From a virus: a stretch of DNA of 33,932 nt. Under the pieces are notes generated by a model. That model did no database searches, had not been told where the DNA came from, and saw nothing but the letters and a program-made list of their open reading frames with translations. Where the stretch lies: IMG/VR virus record IMGVR_UViG_3300032820_000053, positions 1-33,932 of that record, one strand, 5' to 3'. The position numbers were made by a program, and so were the translations under genes. This document shows, piece after piece, positions 7,037-33,932 of the stretch (its first letter is position 1; every line of letters starts with the position of its first letter).

Positions 7037-7084
7037 TACCGTAGCGCACCCCCTTGGCCTGACCCCTCATCCCGGGCCAAGTCT

Positions 7085-7120
7085 GCAACGCCTCGCCAGT
7101 GTCCTCCGGTGAGGCGTTGC
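7085..7120 (+). terminator. Strong hairpin after the methyltransferase operon
   Basis: A 13-pair stem (one G-U), 7085-7097 with 7108-7120, begins and ends with GCAACGCCTC and GAGGCGTTGC. The 10-base loop is AGTGTCCTCC. No T-run follows, so it is not a classical intrinsic terminator; it may mark an operon end, stabilise the 3' end or act in regulation. The loop is the exact complement of the phage's ribosome-site motif GGAGGACACT. Confidence 0.6.
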
Positions 7121-7122
7121 TA

Positions 7123-7197
7123 TGTGGGGTGCTGCTCTGCTGTGGGGATTAAATGTGGGGACCAAATGTAATTACTTGCTTGCGCTTTGCTGTGGGG
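7123..7197 (+). repeat. Four TGTGGGG copies upstream of an early promoter
   Basis: TGTGGGG occurs at 7123, 7141, 7154 and 7191 in the gap between the methyltransferase operon and the small-gene block. The last copy lies inside the promoter spacer at the place where the related minus-strand promoters also carry CGTGGGG or TGTGGGG. This looks like a set of protein-binding sites. Confidence 0.45.
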
Positions 7198-7207
7198 TCG
7201 GTATCAT
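7168..7207 (+). promoter_or_regulatory. Early promoter family, copy 1
   Basis: GTAATTAC (7168-7175), then TTGCTTGCGC with -35 TTGCGC (7180-7185), 16 bases containing TGTGGGGTCG, and -10 TATCAT (7202-7207). The same layout is found at 8245-8285 (plus) and at 33177-33215 and 31987-32025 (minus). It drives the block beginning at 7246. The shared leader that follows has a hairpin and AGGAGGAC. Confidence 0.65.
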
Positions 7208-7217
7208 CTCTGTAGTT

Positions 7218-7232
7218 GCTGCATTGAGCGGC
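7218..7232 (+). promoter_or_regulatory. Leader hairpin before ribosome site
   Basis: GCTGC-ATTGA-GCGGC forms a 5-pair stem (one G-U) ending two bases before AGGAGG. The identical hairpin and ribosome site occur at 8296-8310. Confidence 0.5.
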
Positions 7233-7245
7233 ACAGGAGGACACC

Positions 7246-7431
7246 ATGAAGAGCAAGATCACCGTTACCGTCAACCTCGACACGCTGGACGCGCTCAACC
7301 TCGACCCGGAGCGGCGCAAGGTATGGGAGCAGGCGATCACGGCCCTCGCCGAGGAGTTCCAGTCGGAGGCTTCACAGAGGGCCCACGATGATGTCACCGA
7401 GATGATCGAGAAGCTCAACGCCACCGACTAG
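7246..7431 (+). CDS. Small hypothetical early protein
   Basis: A 61-residue, mostly helical, charged protein. It begins MKSKITVTVNLDTLDALNLD and continues as a long amphipathic helix. No family is recognised. It has an excellent ribosome site (AGGAGG, 5 bases of spacing) behind a hairpin and is the first gene after early promoter copy 1. Thirty bases covering its ribosome site and first six codons (7234-7263) are identical to those of the unrelated gene at 32255-32614. Confidence 0.75.
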   Translation: MKSKITVTVNLDTLDALNLDPERRKVWEQAITALAEEFQSEASQRAHDDVTEMIEKLNATD

Positions 7432-7448
7432 CGGCCCACCCACAACCC

Positions 7449-7460
7449 GCCCCAAGGGGC
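7449..7460 (+). promoter_or_regulatory. Intergenic hairpin before ribosome site
   Basis: GCCCC-AA-GGGGC is a perfect stem that ends two bases before AGGAGG of the gene at 7476. The same 12 bases occur on the minus strand just upstream of the gene starting at 31607. Confidence 0.5.
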
Positions 7461-7475
7461 ACAGGAGGACACACC

Positions 7476-7850
7476 ATGGACCTACACGAACACCAGCGGC
7501 AGCAGAACTACCGGAGCAAGCTCCGCAAGGAGGTCGCGGCCCTCGCGCTGATTGTCCAGGGCATCGACTCCGCCCGCCGCCGGGGCGCGATCAGCGCCGA
7601 CGACGAAGCGTTTCGGCTGCGCCACGCTGCCGCCACGTTCCTGAGCGCCACAGACGCGCACGACTACCACTGCACCGGAGGCTGGCCCGGCTCGCCCGGC
7701 ATCCGTATCACCGACTACGCCGAGAAGTCCTTGGGCTCTCCCTGCCTGAGCCCCGTCCCCGGCGAGCATGAGCCCGGCGAGTGGTGCAGCGGCTGCGGCG
7801 GCAAGTGGCCCAACGGCGGCTGCGTGTGCCCGGGACGGGTCCGGCTGTGA
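7476..7850 (+). CDS. Hypothetical protein with C-terminal Cys cluster
   Basis: A 124-residue protein. The N-terminal 60 residues are helical and basic (RQQNYRSKLRKEVAALALIV); the C-terminus carries CSGCGGKW followed by CVC (about residues 103-118), likely a zinc site. No recognised family. The ribosome site AGGAGGACACACC and a hairpin lie immediately upstream. Its stop overlaps the GTG of a 22-codon open frame. Confidence 0.7.
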   Translation: MDLHEHQRQQNYRSKLRKEVAALALIVQGIDSARRRGAISADDEAFRLRHAAATFLSATDAHDYHCTGGWPGSPGIRITDYAEKSLGSPCLSPVPGEHEPGEWCSGCGGKWPNGGCVCPGRVRL

Positions 7851-7915
7851 GGCTGGCTGCGCTGCGCGCCGTGTTCCTGAACGACTGGATCAAGGCCCAA
7901 GGAGAGACACTGTGA
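7847..7915 (+). CDS. 22-residue micro-ORF coupled on both sides
   Basis: GTG at 7847 overlaps the upstream TGA (GTGA), the frame runs 22 codons (VRLAALRAVFLNDWIKAQGE, then TL), and its TGA at 7913-7915 overlaps the GTG of the next gene, again as GTGA. The peptide could form an amphipathic helix with hydrophobic L, A, V, F and W on one side. It fills what would otherwise be a 61-base gap. It may be a true microprotein or a coupling leader that carries ribosomes to the next gene. Too short to identify. Confidence 0.45.
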   Translation: MRLAALRAVFLNDWIKAQGETL

Positions 7916-8205
7916 AACCATCCAAGCTCGCGGCGCACCGCCGCAACTATGAACACGCGCCCCGCGCCCGCTGGCTGATAGAGGCCCACAGCGACGGCAG
8001 CTTGGATCACCGCGGCAGAGAGGGCGAAGACTACGCCGACGACTACGATCTGCTCACGACCCAGCAAGCAGCGGCCCGGCTGCGCGGTGACGAGGTGATC
8101 CGCTTCCATCGGCTGCGCGGTGACGAGGTGATCGACTGCTGGCACCTCGATCTAGTCACCGGAAGCACAGACGACCACAGGCTCAGGAGAGAGAGCGAGA
8201 CCTAA
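7912..8205 (+). CDS. Hypothetical protein with RLRGDEVI duplication
   Basis: A 97-residue hydrophilic protein beginning at GTG 7912 with AAGGAGAG upstream. A 24-base sequence at 8077-8100 returns at 8110-8133 (period 33 bases), so RLRGDEVI appears twice, each followed by three residues (RFH, DCW). The copies are identical at DNA level, so the duplication is recent or kept uniform. The rest is rich in Arg, His and Asp. No family is recognised. The 24 bases around its stop (8201-8224) recur at 8898-8921. Confidence 0.65.
   Translation: MKPSKLAAHRRNYEHAPRARWLIEAHSDGSLDHRGREGEDYADDYDLLTTQQAAARLRGDEVIRFHRLRGDEVIDCWHLDLVTGSTDDHRLRRESET
8077..8133 (+). repeat. Internal 24-base direct repeat (RLRGDEVI)
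   Basis: Two identical 24-base copies, 8077-8100 and 8110-8133, 33 bases apart and in frame. Confidence 0.9.
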
Positions 8206-8244
8206 CCACCCACGCCACGCCCCGCGCTGCCGCCAAAAGAAAAC

Positions 8245-8285
8245 GTAACTACTTGCTTGACCCCAGCCGACCCCACGGCTACGCT
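8245..8285 (+). promoter_or_regulatory. Early promoter family, copy 2
   Basis: GTAACTAC (8245-8252), -35 TTGACC (8257-8262), a 17-base spacer and -10 TACGCT (8280-8285). In this copy the spacer carries AGCCG-ACCCCA-CGGCT, the reverse orientation of the GTGGGG motif in the other copies, and forms an inverted repeat. The following leader is nearly identical to that of copy 1. It drives the gene at 8327. Confidence 0.65.
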
Positions 8286-8295
8286 CTCTGTAGAT

Positions 8296-8310
8296 GCTGC
8301 ATTGAGCGGC
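8296..8310 (+). promoter_or_regulatory. Leader hairpin before ribosome site
   Basis: Same GCTGC-ATTGA-GCGGC stem as 7218-7232, again two bases before AGGAGG. Confidence 0.5.
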
Positions 8311-8326
8311 ACAGGAGGACGAGACA

Positions 8327-8587
8327 ATGACCAACCTCATCGACATCACCGACCTCACCGCCACTAGCCACCGCGCCCGTGTTGCCGAGGAGGTCGGCCT
8401 GATCGCCGCCGCCGACCGCAGCGTCACCGCCGAAGTGACCCAAGACGCCATCGAGTTGTTTGACTTGCACGTCGCAATGGGATCGCAATACGCCAACGGC
8501 ACCGACTGGGCCGAGGTCTGTCCGGGCGATGTCGCCGCTGAGTTCGTCGCAATGTCGCTGGCACGCCTTGACCGCGACCTGCTCTAA
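8327..8587 (+). CDS. Small hypothetical acidic protein
   Basis: An 86-residue acidic protein (MTNLIDITDLTATSHRARVA at the start), predicted mainly helical, with no cysteines except one near residue 66. No known family. It is the first gene after promoter copy 2 and has AGGAGG 9 bases before its ATG. The small size, acidity and early promoter are typical of phage host-inhibition proteins, but there is no direct evidence of that. Confidence 0.7.
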   Translation: MTNLIDITDLTATSHRARVAEEVGLIAAADRSVTAEVTQDAIELFDLHVAMGSQYANGTDWAEVCPGDVAAEFVAMSLARLDRDLL

Positions 8588-8601
8588 CCAACTCACGGCC
8601 C

Positions 8602-8618
8602 GCCGGAGCCCATCCGGC
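8602..8618 (+). promoter_or_regulatory. Intergenic hairpin module (GCCGGA...TCCGGC)
   Basis: A perfect 6-pair stem with a 5-base loop directly abuts AGGAGGACAC of the gene at 8630. The surrounding 27 bases (8594-8620) recur on the minus strand at 32624-32650 and 31640-31666. Confidence 0.55.
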
Positions 8619-8629
8619 AGGAGGACACT

Positions 8630-8902
8630 ATGACCTACTTTAAAGCGGTGGCCTACGGCAACACATCATCAGGGGAGCTTGAACCCACAAACGGGATCAG
8701 GAGTCTTGCTGATTTGGCGGACTGGATAGAGCGAAAAGTTGCGGGGGAGGGGTGCCGCCGGTACATCCACGGGAGCGATGAGCGCTACTTTTCGGGCGCG
8801 ATCTTCCGCTGCACCACAGCAGGAATAGGCGCGATCCCAGAGCGCATCACCCACTACACGCAGGCCGATGGCTGGACTGCTGAGCCGCTAACCACCACCT
8901 AA
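8630..8902 (+). CDS. Small hypothetical protein
   Basis: A 90-residue protein with a mixed alpha/beta look: an N-terminal strand (YFKAVAYGN), an acidic helix (SLADLADWIERKVAGEG) and a C-terminal half with two cysteines. Not recognised. Its codons are less GC-rich at the third position near the start than those of its neighbours. ATG follows GGAGGACACT, the variant that exactly pairs with the hairpin loop at 7098-7107. Confidence 0.7.
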   Translation: MTYFKAVAYGNTSSGELEPTNGIRSLADLADWIERKVAGEGCRRYIHGSDERYFSGAIFRCTTAGIGAIPERITHYTQADGWTAEPLTTT

Positions 8903-8915
8903 CCACCCACGCCAC

Positions 8916-8933
8916 GCCCCGGGCTTGCGGGGC
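8916..8933 (+). promoter_or_regulatory. Intergenic hairpin before ribosome site
   Basis: GCCCC and GGGGC arms with an 8-base loop, ending two bases before AGGAG of the gene at 8947. The preceding 24 bases (8898-8921) are a copy of 8201-8224. Confidence 0.5.
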
Positions 8934-8946
8934 ACAGGAGCACACC

Positions 8947-9195
8947 ATGGCCCCACGAGAACCCTACCCGCCCGAGCAACTCCAGCGAACCCGCAACCTG
9001 CGCGTGAGCGATGCCGAATGGGCCACCCTGGCTGCCGCTGCAGAGCGCGCAAACATGGGGCTTACCACGTTCATCCGCGAGGCAGCATTGGCCATCGCCG
9101 CCGAAGAGGATCCAGCAGCCAGGATCCAGGCGCGCCAGCAGGCGGAACGGATCGTCGCGCTGCTGCAGGAGGCAGCCGAAGCGGTCAGCGAGTAG
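8947..9195 (+). CDS. Ribbon-helix-helix/MobC-like DNA-binding protein
   Basis: An 82-residue protein. RNLRVSDAEWATLAAAAERA followed by MGLTTFIREAAL is the strand-helix-turn-helix pattern of Arc/CopG/MobC-type ribbon-helix-helix proteins: a strand that enters the major groove, a helix, a G-x-S/T-T turn and a second helix. Such proteins dimerise and repress promoters. It could control the early promoter family upstream, but this is inference. It is the last rightward gene, and its end overlaps the end of the convergent u-spanin candidate by 11 bases. Confidence 0.7.
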   Translation: MAPREPYPPEQLQRTRNLRVSDAEWATLAAAAERANMGLTTFIREAALAIAAEEDPAARIQARQQAERIVALLQEAAEAVSE

Positions 9196-9631
9196 CGATC
9201 AGGACCAGCAGCACCGCCAGCAGGCTCGCGCCTGCACCGGCTCCGGCACCCAAGGCGAACAGGCGCGGCTGCATCTCGCGGGCGATCCGTAGCTGTTCCT
9301 CGCGGGCCTGGATCACACCGAGGGCATACTGCCGATCCGACTCCCTGCCCCGGTAGCTCAGGTCGAGAGCCTTGCGCGCCTCGACCAGCAGTTCGGCCTC
9401 GTCAAGCAGACCCACCAGCCGACCCGGCGGCACCAGCATCCCCACGCAGCCGACATCGATCCCGGGCCCGATGGGCTGGGTGTTCTCGCACCAGCCCGAC
9501 TCGTGCGCCGGTTGCTGGACTTCAGGCAGCGAGGCTCTAGGGAAGCCGTCAAGCAGCGCGGTAGTTGTCGGGGAGGTATGGGCACACCCTACGGCGGCGA
9601 AGGCCACAGCGGCCAGCACAGCGCCTCTCAC
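9185..9631 (-). CDS. Candidate unimolecular spanin (u-spanin)
   Basis: A 148-residue protein with a lipoprotein signal (MRGAVLAAVAFAAVGC, lipid cysteine 16) and a single membrane helix at its very C-terminus (about residues 127-146, GASLLAVLLVLIATR). A protein tethered to the outer membrane by lipid and to the inner membrane by a C-terminal helix is the plan of T1-type u-spanins, which fuse the two membranes in the last step of lysis of diderm hosts. The periplasmic part contains a helical region (EAELLVEARKALDLSYRGRE). GTG start at 9631 overlaps the upstream TGA. Last gene of the late operon. The topology is clear; the function is inferred. Confidence 0.65.
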   Translation of the reverse strand: MRGAVLAAVAFAAVGCAHTSPTTTALLDGFPRASLPEVQQPAHESGWCENTQPIGPGIDVGCVGMLVPPGRLVGLLDEAELLVEARKALDLSYRGRESDRQYALGVIQAREEQLRIAREMQPRLFALGAGAGAGASLLAVLLVLIATR

Positions 9632-30746: not shown

Positions 30747-31126
30747 TTCGGAAGGGGCCCAGGGACGTGCAGATTGACCGTGACGGGCTGTGCGTCGATC
30801 TCAGCGGCTCTCTCGACCCCGGTGATCTTGCTCTCCAGGGTCATCATGGCAGCGAGCGGTCCGAGCTTGCCAGCCTCCAGGGCTGCGCGTTGGTGGCCTC
30901 GGATCCTGTCGAGGAACTCCGAGCGCATCTCGTCAAGGTCACGCTCCGACATCTCAAGCCGGGTGCGCTCTATGACGCGCTCCCGGTACGCGTAGATCGT
31001 ATCTCGGTGCACGCCGATCTCTGCTGCAAGGTCGAGGGCGATCTGAAGCGACCAGCCGCGATCACCGATCCGCTGCTGCACGATGGCCATGCGCCGTTCG
31101 ATCTCTGCCTGGGTCGTCTTTGGCAT
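30743..31126 (-). CDS. terS: Terminase small subunit
   Basis: A 127-residue protein with an N-terminal helix-turn-helix (about residues 24-52, LQIALDLAAEIGVHRDTIYA) followed by a basic and acidic coiled coil (ERVIERTRLEMSERDLDEMR) and a C-terminal tail. This is the architecture of small terminases: DNA recognition, then an oligomerisation core. It directs the motor to the packaging site. First gene of the late operon, with a promoter-like TATAGG five bases before the ATG and no clear ribosome site. Confidence 0.85.
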   Translation of the reverse strand: MPKTTQAEIERRMAIVQQRIGDRGWSLQIALDLAAEIGVHRDTIYAYRERVIERTRLEMSERDLDEMRSEFLDRIRGHQRAALEAGKLGPLAAMMTLESKITGVERAAEIDAQPVTVNLHVPGPLPK

Positions 31127-31139
31127 GCTGCCCTATAGC

Positions 31140-31168
31140 GGTGCAAGTCTCTAACCAGTCTATGCACC
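31140..31168. promoter_or_regulatory. Inverted repeat upstream of the late operon
   Basis: GGTGCA (31140-31145) and TGCACC (31163-31168) are perfect arms 17 bases apart, just upstream of terS. This is a candidate operator or activator site for the late promoter; a minus-strand TATAGG at about 31137-31132 could be the -10. Confidence 0.4.
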
Positions 31169-31194
31169 TTCGCGCCAGTGTCCAGAACCAGCAA

Positions 31195-31208
31195 CGCCCG
31201 CCGGGGCG
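31195..31208. terminator. GC-rich hairpin between small-gene block and late operon
   Basis: CGCCC-GCCG-GGGCG gives a 5-pair stem. Read on the minus strand it is followed by TTGCTGGTTCT, moderately U-rich, so it could end early transcripts before the late operon. A weak example. Confidence 0.4.
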
Positions 31209-31238
31209 GACGCTGTGGCCTGAGCGGGGTTGGTGGGT

Positions 31239-31607
31239 CTAGCGCGTGAACGCGTCGCGGGAGATCCTGCGCTCGGAGGGCAGGCACCGAGAGCCAGCCA
31301 TCAGGCTCTCTGTCTCGATAGCGCAGCCCTCTAGCCAGCAGAGTTCCTCGGCGCGGTCTTCCGCTGTGGTCGAGTTCTCCCACTCGATGCCAGCCTGCAG
31401 CCGTGACTGGTATTCCAGCCAACCGTTATAGTCCTCGGCCTCATACTGGCTGCACGGTTGACCGTCGCGACCGGGGTGAGCCTCTAGCCTCGCCGCCAGA
31501 TCGTCAAGGTGGGACTGGTGGACCTTCCATGCCTTGGCGCGGCCCGTTGCTGTTCGCGTGTAGTGGGTCCAGGTTACGGGGTCTTTGCGGCTGGTGGCTT
31601 CGTTCAT
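31239..31607 (-). CDS. Hypothetical early protein
   Basis: A 122-residue hydrophilic protein, Trp- and Glu-rich (GWLEYQSRLQAGIEWENSTT, then EDRAEELCWLEGCAIETES). Mostly helical by composition, with three cysteines in the second half. No family recognised. It is the last gene of the minus-strand small-gene block, preceded by two intergenic hairpins (the GCCGGA module and GCCCC-AA-GGGGC) and GGAGGACAAGACA before the ATG. Confidence 0.7.
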   Translation of the reverse strand: MNEATSRKDPVTWTHYTRTATGRAKAWKVHQSHLDDLAARLEAHPGRDGQPCSQYEAEDYNGWLEYQSRLQAGIEWENSTTAEDRAEELCWLEGCAIETESLMAGSRCLPSERRISRDAFTR

Positions 31608-31623
31608 TGTCTTGTCCTCCGTG

Positions 31624-31666
31624 CCCCTTGGGGCGGTTGCTGCCGGATGGGCTCCGGCGGGCCGTG
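31624..31666 (-). repeat. Two leader hairpin modules in tandem
   Basis: The gap before the gene at 31607 contains the 27-base GCCGGA/TCCGGC module (31640-31666, shared with 8594-8620 and 32624-32650) followed by GCCCCAAGGGGC (about 31624-31635, shared with 7449-7460). It combines modules that are found singly elsewhere. Confidence 0.7.
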
Positions 31667-31679
31667 GGGTTGGTGGTGG

Positions 31680-31946
31680 TTAGTTGCCAAGGGTTCCGTG
31701 TACCCAGCCTCGCTGTCGGGCGAGCGCGCGTCCTCTCCAGGTCAGCGCGATGGCGACGACGGTTCCTGAATGGGAGGATGAGATCCTGGTGCCTGGCTTT
31801 AGGACGGCAAGACCGCGATCAATGGCAGCGTCAAGGGCGGCACCGTCGATGGCGAGGTTTAGAGTGTGCGATACCTTGTGCTGCGGTTGGCGCGCGAGGA
31901 TCTCAACTGCGGCCTCGGCTGCGGTCTTGGCGTCGGCTGCGGTCAT
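31680..31946 (-). CDS. Small hypothetical protein
   Basis: An 88-residue protein. ATG 31946 was chosen because CCGGAG lies about 10 bases upstream and because the in-frame extension to 32048 would run through a promoter. The N-terminus is Ala-rich and helical (MTAADAKTAAEAAVEILARQ), then strand-rich (TRISSSHSGTVVAIALTW) with a basic end (RGRALARQRGW). Not recognised. It is the first gene after early promoter copy 4. Confidence 0.65.
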   Translation of the reverse strand: MTAADAKTAAEAAVEILARQPQHKVSHTLNLAIDGAALDAAIDRGLAVLKPGTRISSSHSGTVVAIALTWRGRALARQRGWVHGTLGN

Positions 31947-31986
31947 TGTCTTAACTCCGGTGGCTTGATTGCCCTCAACTGTCCTA

Positions 31987-32025
31987 ATGGTAGTCGTCCC
32001 CACAGCTACGGTCAAGCACGTAATG
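31987..32025 (-). promoter_or_regulatory. Early promoter family, copy 4
   Basis: Minus strand: ATTACGTGC, -35 TTGACC (32015-32010), a 17-base spacer with GTAGCTGTGGGGACG, and -10 TACCAT (31992-31987). It is almost identical to copy 3 from -35 through the spacer. It sits between 32063 and 31946 and drives the gene at 31946. Confidence 0.65.
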
Positions 32026-32062
32026 TCACTTTCTCCAATCTCATCCACCGCAGGCCCGCAGT

Positions 32063-32245
32063 CTAGCGTCTGGCCTTCCGGTATTCGCCGCGCATCAACT
32101 CAGCGCCGCAGCCCTGGCAGATGATCGCCGACCAGCCAGCCCAGGCGACCGTGCGGCCTTTGCCGCAGCCGGGGCAGGTCACGTTCACGATGTACGCGCC
32201 GGAGCCGTTAGGATGCCGCCGCTTGTGCGAGAGGGTGCCTTTCAT
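32063..32245 (-). CDS. Small zinc-ribbon protein
   Basis: A 60-residue protein with CPGC (about residues 24-27) and CQGC (about 43-46), a standard two-knuckle zinc ribbon with basic ends (MKGTLSHKRRHP, YRKARR). Likely to bind nucleic acid or act as an adaptor. The ribosome site TAGGAGCAC starts at the stop codon of the upstream gene, 10 bases away. No enzymatic domain. Confidence 0.75.
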   Translation of the reverse strand: MKGTLSHKRRHPNGSGAYIVNVTCPGCGKGRTVAWAGWSAIICQGCGAELMRGEYRKARR

Positions 32246-32254
32246 GGTGTGCTC

Positions 32255-32614
32255 CTACTCCTTGTTGTCAGCGTCGATCTCAGCGAGCCGCACATCGTTC
32301 TGCTGCTCCCGTCGCACCTTTGCGAGGCGACGCGCTTCCTTGCTCCCGTCGCGCACAGCCTCTTCCTGGGAGTTAGCCACGTTGAAAGCGATGCGCTGCC
32401 CTGCCCATGAGCATCGGAGGACGTGGCTCCGGTTGGCCGCGACGTGCATGAGTCGCCACACATAGGGGGAGTCGGCCTCCCTGCTCAGGGGCCAGCTTTG
32501 TACGAGGGTGATGCCCGCGCCCCCCGTGTGGCGCATTTCGTCAACGTATGCCACGTCAGGGCGGTGGCGGGTCAGGTGGTCGAGGATTGCGAGTGTGGTG
32601 ATCTTGCTCTTCAT
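32255..32614 (-). CDS. Hypothetical early protein
   Basis: A 119-residue protein starting MKSKITTLAILDHLTRHRPD. The middle has strands (GAGITLVQSWPLSRE, YVWRLMHVAA) and a basic, helical C-terminus (EEAVRDGSKEARRLAKVRRE). Not recognised. Its ribosome site and first six codons are identical over 30 bases to those of the gene at 7246, although the proteins then diverge completely. The 27-base hairpin module precedes it. Confidence 0.7.
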   Translation of the reverse strand: MKSKITTLAILDHLTRHRPDVAYVDEMRHTGGAGITLVQSWPLSREADSPYVWRLMHVAANRSHVLRCSWAGQRIAFNVANSQEEAVRDGSKEARRLAKVRREQQNDVRLAEIDADNKE

Positions 32615-32623
32615 GGTGTCCTC

Positions 32624-32650
32624 CTGCCGGATAGGCTCCGGCGGGCCGTG
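32624..32650 (-). repeat. Intergenic hairpin module, minus copy
   Basis: A 27-base sequence containing GCCGGA-GCCTA-TCCGGC abuts AGGAGGACACC of the gene at 32614. It matches 8594-8620 and 31640-31666 except for one loop base. Confidence 0.75.
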
Positions 32651-32665
32651 GGGGTTGGTGGTGAG

Positions 32666-32989
32666 TTAGTCCTGGGGCGGTCGGTATCCGCGAAGCGCTG
32701 CGAGGATGTTGTGATCAGCCATTCTCACCGAGAGACCCTCAGAGATAGAATCTAGCGGTATAAATCGCGCAATCTTCGCGGCGGTATGCGTGAATCCGTA
32801 TTTGCCGCTCTGTCGGCTGTGGGCGTATTCGATCACCTCTCGGATCGTGAGATCGGTGGTGCCTGCCTTGATCGCCCAGTCAATTCCAGAGAGCGAGTTA
32901 AGGCTAAACAGGGCTGCTAGTTCCACAGCGATCGCCTTCTGCTCGTGGGTCAAGGTCGGGTATGTGGCTGCCTCCGCTGCGTTGCTCAT
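32666..32989 (-). CDS. Hypothetical early protein
   Basis: A 107-residue protein, mostly helical: LTHEQKAIAVELAALFSLNS followed by GIDWAIKAGTTDLTIREVIE. Not recognised. The coding sequence near its end is somewhat AT-richer than its neighbours. It lies second in the minus-strand block, behind CGGAGGACACT and a hairpin that overlaps the stop codon of the upstream 54-residue gene. Confidence 0.7.
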   Translation of the reverse strand: MSNAAEAATYPTLTHEQKAIAVELAALFSLNSLSGIDWAIKAGTTDLTIREVIEYAHSRQSGKYGFTHTAAKIARFIPLDSISEGLSVRMADHNILAALRGYRPPQD

Positions 32990-33001
32990 AGTGTCCTCCG
33001 T

Positions 33002-33014
33002 GCGGCTAGGCCGC
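33002..33014 (-). promoter_or_regulatory. Hairpin spanning a stop codon, before a ribosome site
   Basis: GCGGC-CTA-GCCGC (minus strand) is a perfect 5-pair stem. The stop codon TAG of the 54-residue gene lies within it, and CGGAGGAC of the next gene begins two bases later. Ribosomes ending the first gene would open it. Confidence 0.5.
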
Positions 33015-33170
33015 GAGTGCCCTTAGCTGGGCGCGGGTGGTTCGCTTCAGAGTCGCCTTGACTCCGGCGCGGTGAAGCTCTTGGACTCGTCGCATGGCAG
33101 CCTTGGCTGTGCCTCGCACCTGCTCGGCGTCGCGTCCCGGGGCTTCGATGGTGTAAATTCGAACTCTCAT
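33006..33170 (-). CDS. 54-residue basic protein, probably leaderless mRNA
   Basis: ATG at 33170, stop TAG at 33008-33006. The protein starts MRVRIYTIEAPGRDAEQVRG and is strongly basic in its second half (AAMRRVQELHRAGVKATLKR). A strand-then-helix start and basic surface suggest a nucleic-acid-binding protein, but no family is recognised. The -10 of promoter copy 3 ends 6 bases before the ATG and no ribosome site lies between, so transcription should begin at or next to the start codon. First gene of the minus-strand block. Confidence 0.7.
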   Translation of the reverse strand: MRVRIYTIEAPGRDAEQVRGTAKAAMRRVQELHRAGVKATLKRTTRAQLRALAA

Positions 33171-33176
33171 GACTTG

Positions 33177-33215
33177 ATGATAGCGTCCCCACGGCTACGG
33201 TCAAGCGGTAGTTAC
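33177..33215 (-). promoter_or_regulatory. Early promoter family, copy 3
   Basis: Minus strand: GTAACTAC (33215-33208), -35 TTGACC (33204-33199), a 16-base spacer with GTAGCCGTGGGGACG, and -10 TATCAT (33182-33177). It is the closest copy to consensus and drives the small-gene block. It lies in the 93-base gap after the PP-loop gene. Confidence 0.7.
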
Positions 33216-33263
33216 GCATTAGATCAAATCAGTTGCGCTGTCAGCCTCCAGTGTCACGATCAG

Positions 33264-33932
33264 CTAGCCGTCATAGCACCCGCAAGCGGTGTCTATGTGG
33301 TGGCTAAACATCTTGAGTTGTGCTTCGTCTGCCTTGATCACGCTCTCCCACGTCCAGTCTCTACCCAGTCCCACGATCACCCCGCGACAATTCGGCGCGG
33401 CCCTGCGTTCGATCTCCAGTGCCCGCTCTAGCAGATCGGGGTGACACTGCTTGAGCCGCAGGATCTCGCGGGGCTTCATGGCAGGGCAGAAGAAGCAAGA
33501 CGACTTACCGGGCTGCGGCAGTCCCGCCGCTTCGATCGCGTCCTCGCATTCTTCCCTACCCCAGACCCACTCGATCAGTGGGTGCCGCCAGATCCACTTA
33601 TCAGACTCCATGCCCTGCTGACGCTGTGCCCTGCCTGGTTCGTCTGCGTCAAAGCCGATCGCCTTGATCACCTTTTCGCCCCTGCTCCACGCATCGCGAG
33701 CGGGTTGCCAGTTGTTCACGAACTTCTCTTGAGGGCTGATCTTGAACTTTTGGCTGCACTTCTTAAACCCGTATGCAAGCGACGGAAGCCTGCCATTGTC
33801 GGCGCACTCCCGTTCCAGGCTCAGTTCTTTGCCGTTACGGTCAACCGTGATCACCGTCTCGATCGCCGGATAGCCCCGCTCCTGTAGCCAGTCAGAGAAC
33901 AGGCGCAGGTAGGAATAGGTGCCAGGACGCTC
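33264..33932 (-). CDS. PP-loop ATPase, PAPS-reductase-like: C-terminal part plus repeated segment
   Basis: Joined to 255-1, this gives a protein of about 262 residues; the piece at 33798-33932 repeats the N-terminal region. Visible family features are KKCSQKFKISP (Cys 99), IGFDADEPGRA, and SCFFCPAMKPREIL (Cys 186 and 189). The ECGLH redox motif of true assimilatory PAPS reductases is absent, so it is more likely a PP-loop enzyme that adenylates another substrate, possibly with a metal or Fe-S site on the cysteines. A GTG at 33854 is within the open frame but the real start is 255. Confidence 0.8.
   Translation of the reverse strand, partial: ERPGTYSYLRLFSDWLQERGYPAIETVITVDRNGKELSLERECADNGRLPSLAYGFKKCSQKFKISPQEKFVNNWQPARDAWSRGEKVIKAIGFDADEPGRAQRQQGMESDKWIWRHPLIEWVWGREECEDAIEAAGLPQPGKSSCFFCPAMKPREILRLKQCHPDLLERALEIERRAAPNCRGVIVGLGRDWTWESVIKADEAQLKMFSHHIDTACGCYDG
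33798..33932. repeat. Right copy of terminal repeat
   Basis: A copy of 1-135 with two differences, both in third codon positions of the PP-loop gene. Joining 33797 to 1 gives the unit length. Confidence 0.9.

Follow-up and report, generated by a model that had tools for sequence, protein, structure and literature searches.

Hairpin-plus-Shine–Dalgarno leader modules before small genes in an uncultivated siphophage lineage

Why do small phage genes begin, again and again, with a hairpin placed just before a strong Shine–Dalgarno (SD) sequence? The question is raised by the window analysed here, a stretch of 33,932 bases which represents an entire virus record. Positions 1–135 match 33,798–33,932 at 99% (a terminal direct repeat of 135 bp), so that the record is probably a near-complete phage genome with overlapping ends, either circularised or terminally redundant. 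The minus strand encodes TerL, portal, protease, major head and tape-measure proteins, and the window also encodes a replication initiator, homologues of Erf, SSB and RusA, and a methyltransferase. A phosphoadenosine phosphosulfate reductase-like protein is encoded at 33264–33854 (minus strand). By DNA, no close relative was detected with blastn among 50,697 phage records, and protein matches to cultured phages are remote (25–40% identity). The relatives are metagenomic virus contigs only, labelled L### and G020, and most of them are contig fragments; the head proteins of L005–L011 are 87–96% identical to that of the window. The modules described here belong to this uncultivated siphophage lineage, which comprises the window and its relatives.

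Nine starts carry a perfect GC-rich hairpin: 2097, 7246, 7476, 8327, 8630 and 8947 on the plus strand, and 32989, 32614 and 31607 on the minus strand. In all nine, the 3′ end of the hairpin lies 0–3 nt 5′ of GGAG, and the SD reads (C)(A)GGAGGAC in eight, the exception being GGAGCAC at 8947. A first-pass annotation which had counted at least eight such genes is confirmed in number, in coordinates, in the stems it had named (all are present) and, apart from 8947, in the form of the SD. The interval 7218–8933, given there as the location, contains five of the nine modules; the other four lie outside. Its statement that each gene has a different hairpin holds insofar as there are six hairpin types, but three pairs repeat: 7246 and 8327 have the same hairpin, 8630 and 32614 (both type A) differ in the loop alone, and the stem of 7476 (type B) is common to 31607. 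The loops within the window modules are ATTGA, GCCYA, CTA, CAAG, GGCTTG and ATGCC.

On the plus strand, the first module (2068–2096, before the ORF 2097–2348) consists of the hairpin GTCGGGC-ATGCC-GCCCGGC (2068–2086) and the SD GGAGGACACC. The type D module (7217–7245, before the ORF 7246–7431) is composed of TGCTGC-ATTGA-GCGGCA (7217–7233, with one U·G pair), CA and GGAGGACACC; its second copy (8295–8326, hairpin 8295–8311 followed by the SD) precedes the ORF 8327–8587. Between these two lies the type B module (7449–7475, before the ORF 7476–7850), in which GCCC-CAAG-GGGC (7449–7460) is followed by ACA and GGAGGACACACC. The type A module (8602–8629, before the ORF 8630–8902) comprises GCCGGA-GCCCA-TCCGGC (8602–8618), A and GGAGGACACT. 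Lastly, GCCCCG-GGCTTG-CGGGGC (8916–8933), ACA and GGAGCACACC form the module 8916–8946 before the ORF 8947–9195, whose product is Arc/NikA-like.

On the minus strand, the type C module (32990–33014, before the ORF 32666–32989) contains GCGGC-CTA-GCCGC (33002–33014), AC and GGAGGACACT. A type A module with the loop variant GCCTA (32615–32642; hairpin 32626–32642, then A and the SD) precedes the ORF 32255–32614. The module 31608–31658, before the ORF 31239–31607, is a tandem in which an A hairpin (31642–31658), AGCAACC, a B hairpin (31623–31634), AC and GGAGGACAAGACA follow each other; the same A+B tandem is present in L006, L038 and L053. The non-structural starts without a hairpin are 2549, 3268, 5695, 7912, 32245 and 31946. 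The last of these belongs, as a weak case, to a family which does form the hairpin in relatives: its promoter-proximal type E leader CAGTTGAGGGCAATCAAGCCACCGGAGTTAAGACA (31947–31985, minus strand) is weakly paired in the window and forms strong hairpins in relatives.

In a genome of 65% GC, an equally good hairpin arises at 9.5% of random positions and in about 7% of dinucleotide-shuffled leaders. A single hairpin therefore carries no meaning, but the set of nine does. The comparison with shuffled sequence which the first-pass annotation had proposed gave, for SD-led non-structural starts of the window, nine hairpins in 15 leaders against 1.03 expected (P = 5.5e-8, dinucleotide shuffles, repeats counted). 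Copies spread by recombination inflate such counts; with copies collapsed, six of the 12 independent leader types have a hairpin, where 0.82 would be expected (P = 4.4e-5, dinucleotide shuffles). The starts of the structural operon are at the expected level (1/10 vs 0.9).

In the relatives, all starts with the extended SD GGAG[GA]A[CTG]..ATG in family contigs were taken irrespective of a hairpin. Among 106 non-redundant leaders of this kind, 47 have a hairpin at 0–3 nt, compared to 6.0 (sd 2.5, maximum 13) in 200 shuffles. Sorted by exact offset between hairpin and SD, the counts are 5, 22, 35 and 18 at 0, 1, 2 and 3 nt and 0–7 farther out, which places the peak of the hairpin 3′ end 1–3 nt before the SD. 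Control phage contigs have hairpins in 17/195 leaders, with a flat profile and no positional peak. Type A is over-represented among the relatives because L031–L038 were retrieved by the type A pattern itself; contigs retrieved by head, terminase or SSB protein (L006, L009, the G020 contig, L067 and L069–L071) have the same architecture with other stems. The hairpin-plus-SD modules are real and beyond chance. A separate search of 84,980 prokaryote genomes for the type A DNA pattern returned three matches, none followed by a start codon, which corresponds to chance; two of the three lie in apparently homologous coding sequence of Acetobacteraceae.

Does the hairpin act as RNA or as a DNA palindrome? 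Across the window's family, 28 distinct stems occupy the same position and compensatory changes are present, in line with the covariation which the first-pass annotation had suggested looking for. In stems with a single defect, the defect is G·U in eight cases, which are partly related and perhaps represent four independent ones, and A·C in none. The occurrence of G·U but never A·C points to folding as sense-strand RNA since a DNA palindrome would not favour one over the other. A MAFFT alignment of all promoter-proximal leaders misplaced the stems, and an ungapped 15-column set was used instead. In this fixed-register set (18 leaders, five pairs), 96.7% of the positions are paired vs 56.8% when shuffled, with 29 double changes vs 9.6, and slid registers are paired at 35–44%. 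As the 18 leaders were chosen as hairpin-like, these values overstate the pairing, and we give more weight to a test of the outer pairs. For this test, 2.9 million contigs were scanned for the exact string CCGG-GGCMTNGTA-CCGG, which fixes the four inner pairs only. The 33 distinct matches (the L095 array described below left out, copies in the known L037 and L046 kept) include 19 which directly adjoin an SD and ATG. The next outer pair is formed in 19/19 of these SD-adjacent matches (C-G 14, G-C 4, U-G 1) compared to 5/14 of the others, and the second outer pair in 15/19 compared to 3/14. Taken together, comparative data provide good evidence that the hairpin pairs as RNA, with a stem of free sequence.

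Two placements of the modules can be distinguished. Types D and E, together with eight copies in L046, a relative of 44 kb, lie after a predicted promoter: a CTTGACC-like −35 element and a −10 element are followed at 5–7 nt by (A)GUUG and the hairpin. These promoter-proximal copies begin a few nt past the predicted transcription start, and hairpin and SD make up their entire predicted 5′ UTR. In the window, a putative plus-strand promoter of weak consensus, TTGCGC-N16-TATCAT, with a TGTGGGG element in the spacer, is located at 7180–7207; with a predicted transcription start at ~7214, the 5′ end of the mRNA would be the type D hairpin. Upstream of the second type D module, sequence comparison indicates a putative promoter TTGACC-N17-TACGCT (8257–8285, plus strand) with a predicted start at ~8292. 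Both plus-strand promoters are derived from alignment to L037 and L039, and a consensus scan reports neither of them. The scan does report both minus-strand promoters, namely TTGACC-17-TACCAT (32015–31987) upstream of the type E leader and the promoter-like TTGACC-16-TATCAT (33204–33177) directly before the ATG of a 54-aa gene. This gene (33006–33170, minus strand) begins 6 nt past the −10 element, and its mRNA may therefore be leaderless. The remaining module types are intercistronic: type A stands right after the upstream stop codon, and the type C hairpin overlaps the TAG stop of the 54-aa gene.

Direct repeats GTGGATAC with a spacing of about 22 bp, often on either side of the −35 element, are also present in the promoters upstream of promoter-proximal modules (window 7130–7200, 8245–8280, 31990–32015 and 33185–33205; also L037, L053, L006 and L009). 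In appearance they are similar to a DnaA box or to an operator. The repeat element varies by phage, with TGTGGGGAC in the window and GTGCACA in L033/L038, which perhaps reflects repressor specificity.

Behind the conserved leaders, the genes themselves change. Clustering the proteins of 64 module-led genes gives about 49 clusters, a lower bound given that weak matches hold part of the largest one together. At the type C site of five phages, the upstream 160 nt, with the orthologous 54-aa gene as the conserved left flank of the joint, and the leader are ~80% identical; five unrelated genes follow, and identity is at the random level (0.53–0.57) beyond 40 nt past the ATG. Type A is conserved in the interval from −40 to 0 only (0.87), with flanks at 0.57–0.64 and a random level of 0.58. 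Conversely, one gene family (MKLTYWHA/MRLTYWHA) is preceded by type D in L037 but by type E in L038, and leader and gene are therefore separable units. Homology stops at the module and unrelated genes come after it, as at a mosaic boundary. Since the leaders persist and the genes which follow are replaced, the modules appear to head the cassettes of a hypervariable array and to serve as its mosaic joints. The role as recombination joints proposed in the first-pass annotation is well supported in this respect, and the alignments are good evidence that the modules act as mosaic joints. The identity among type A copies could reflect homogenisation or a sequence-specific ligand instead of pure structure. 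Furthermore, GGAGGACACCATGAAGAGCAAGATCACC is common to window positions 7236–7263 and 32597–32624, at two genes whose leaders differ (types D and A) and whose C-terminal parts are unrelated; this looks as if an exchange had joined both genes at the start codon.

The nearest described system is formed by the start-associated sequences (SAS/ESAS) of cluster K mycobacteriophages, which have been surveyed in 188 genomes (PMC12699233). The analogy had been drawn in the first-pass annotation and is apt: both are repeated elements of ~40 nt with an inverted repeat and an SD part, at the starts of some small non-structural genes. The inverted repeats of cluster K do not support RNA pairing; DNA-binding sites were suggested and a use in recombination was mentioned (Pope et al. 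2011, PMC3203893). SAS consists of a single fixed 13-mer, and ESAS of a conserved 17-bp inverted repeat which is unpaired as RNA, whereas the stems of the window's family are 4–8 bp long, free in sequence and covarying; the constant part is the loop or else the GGAGGAC extension. The SAS 13-mer GGGATAGGAGCCC, searched with up to 2 mismatches, matches the window once (1.16 by chance) and not at a start, where 11–19 copies would be expected near starts; in the cluster K phage Anaya, an SD-adjacent hairpin occurs at 1/17 SAS sites. The window modules are thus not SAS/ESAS, although they occupy the same niche.

Phage T4 possesses stable intercistronic CUUCGG hairpins with a UUCG loop. These are likewise stable repeated hairpins close to translation starts, but the UUCG tetraloop is absent from the window modules. 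In lambdoid phages, mosaic boundary sequences are short conserved gene borders at which non-homologous genes are exchanged. The window's family has such short borders too; here, however, the border itself is a structured leader with an SD and occurs in many copies per genome. Types D and E, with a hairpin at the predicted 5′ end and then an SD, resemble the 5′-terminal stem-loop stabilisers of the E. coli ompA/papA type (PMC3997798), which are single elements of one gene, unlike the many and also intercistronic copies found here. Rfam yields 0 matches in the window at the gathering threshold and, in L046, nothing beyond sub-threshold, chance-like matches.

How far do such leaders extend? An intercistronic subtype, CCGG-GGCMUNGUA-CCGG before an SD and ATG, is present in 15 or more phage contigs, for the most part unrelated, of 44–67% GC (L085, L086, L091, L092, L101, L102, L103, L104, L108, L114, L116, L117, L118, L124 and L125), with three copies in L104. 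In a comparison of the fetched flanks of all but L092 and L101, most contigs have no detectable protein in common, either among themselves or with members of the window's family; proteins are shared, however, by L103 with the window and with the 44-kb relative, by L086 with L091, and by L102 with L108. Nothing in Rfam matches the subtype, and an exact-string search of the open literature gave no match. Weak matches in cultured phages were discarded (Skulduggery without the loop, Gilgamesh without a strong SD). A wider RNA class beyond the window's family is plausible from these comparisons. Whether it amounts to a widespread undescribed phage RNA header, i.e. a free-stem hairpin 0–4 nt before the SD (with the GGCMUNGUA loop in one subtype) which would serve as a plug-in 5′ module of accessory genes in unrelated phages and as an exchange point, is a more tentative proposal to which we give somewhat less than even odds. 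The same loop, GGCYTCGTA, is seen in a different setting: L095:1190–2945 (IMGVR_UViG_2898597404_000001, 73% GC) contains 33 hairpin repeats CGCCCGAGCCGGGGCYTCGTACCGGCGAC at intervals of mostly 43–51 nt, interrupted by two larger gaps; the short spacers are unique, the stems covary and there is no tRNA. This array is CRISPR-like in look.

The modules are a previously undescribed variant of phage start-associated leaders, with a presumed function in expression. We favour the reading (probability roughly 0.6) that they are portable leaders, composed of an RNA hairpin and an extended SD, which head a hypervariable array of small genes. The preferred function of the hairpin would be to protect the 5′ terminus of an mRNA or processed cistron against 5′-end-dependent decay. 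Protection of mRNA ends was among the roles offered in the first-pass annotation, and the promoter-proximal copies, with their position close to the predicted transcription start, would agree with it. The SD would stay free beside it, and any gene placed behind would obtain standard expression. As the headers recur near-identically within and between genomes, they could provide short homologies for the phage's Erf-type annealing recombinase, and exchange at these sites would swap single genes with expression unbroken. The presence of Erf, SSB and RusA homologues is in line with the exchange step. On the other hand, intercistronic copies would need processing to become 5′ ends, and several SD-led small genes lack a module.

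Control of ribosome access, which the first-pass annotation had offered as a function, finds no support in folding predictions: the SD is unpaired at 0.43 in native and 0.43 in shuffled leaders (P = 0.66), and the upstream context matters little to its predicted exposure. The same values leave unsupported the idea of insulation, in which the hairpin would keep the SD open whatever lies upstream. They also speak against an SD-sequestering regulatory hairpin or riboswitch, as the SD is no more paired than in shuffled leaders.

The modules might instead be pure expression elements, that is 5′-UTR mRNA stabilisers or translation enhancers, with gene swapping as a by-product of their repetition. 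The fixed geometry with free stems and the 5′-terminal placement at predicted promoters agree with this proposal, and 5′ hairpins are established stabilisers which hinder RppH/RNase E (review, PMC3997798); yet it leaves the near-identical A, B and C sequences before unrelated genes of different phages unexplained, and we consider it rather unlikely as the whole account. Less probable still are binding sites of a phage or host RNA-binding protein, a translational regulator which would read the loop and the position of the stem, the loop classes ACGRA, AATYAA and GGCMUNGUA being distinct specificities. Loops are indeed better conserved than stems within classes, and contigs which are for the most part unrelated have the GGCMUNGUA loop ahead of SDs, but the loops differ widely inside the single genome of the window and no candidate RNA-binding protein was identified. 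Recombination sites proper, i.e. DNA palindromes or cruciforms of a site-specific or gene-cassette system, would account for the exchanged-gene junctions falling at modules. They are improbable given that G·U defects without A·C and free stems favour sense-strand RNA and that the modules are always oriented and phased to the SD and start codon; in addition, no recombinase for them was noticed among the window proteins searched, in a search not aimed at recombinases. Intrinsic terminators of the upstream gene, accidentally preceding the next SD, would also be GC-rich and intergenic, but they are very improbable: a U-tract is absent, a terminator scan found 0 sites in 7040–9200 and one unrelated site in 31100–33300, and promoter-proximal copies have no upstream gene in their transcript. 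Chance hairpins, although the same threshold is passed so readily in GC-rich DNA, are contradicted by the shuffle enrichment, the offset peak, the pairing tests and the flat control contigs, which reduces them to a negligible prospect.

The GGCMUNGUA subtype is a candidate for an RNA family, one for which a binding partner can be tested, and contrasts with the cluster K ESAS, the role of which has been open since 2011. More generally, phages hold many small genes of no assigned role, which are gained and lost often. If the portable-leader reading is correct, and one leader both ensures expression wherever a gene lands and supplies the homology for swapping, genome mosaicism would be linked to expression. 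The modules would then also offer a sequence signature for finding arrays of accessory (e.g. anti-host) genes in uncultivated phages.
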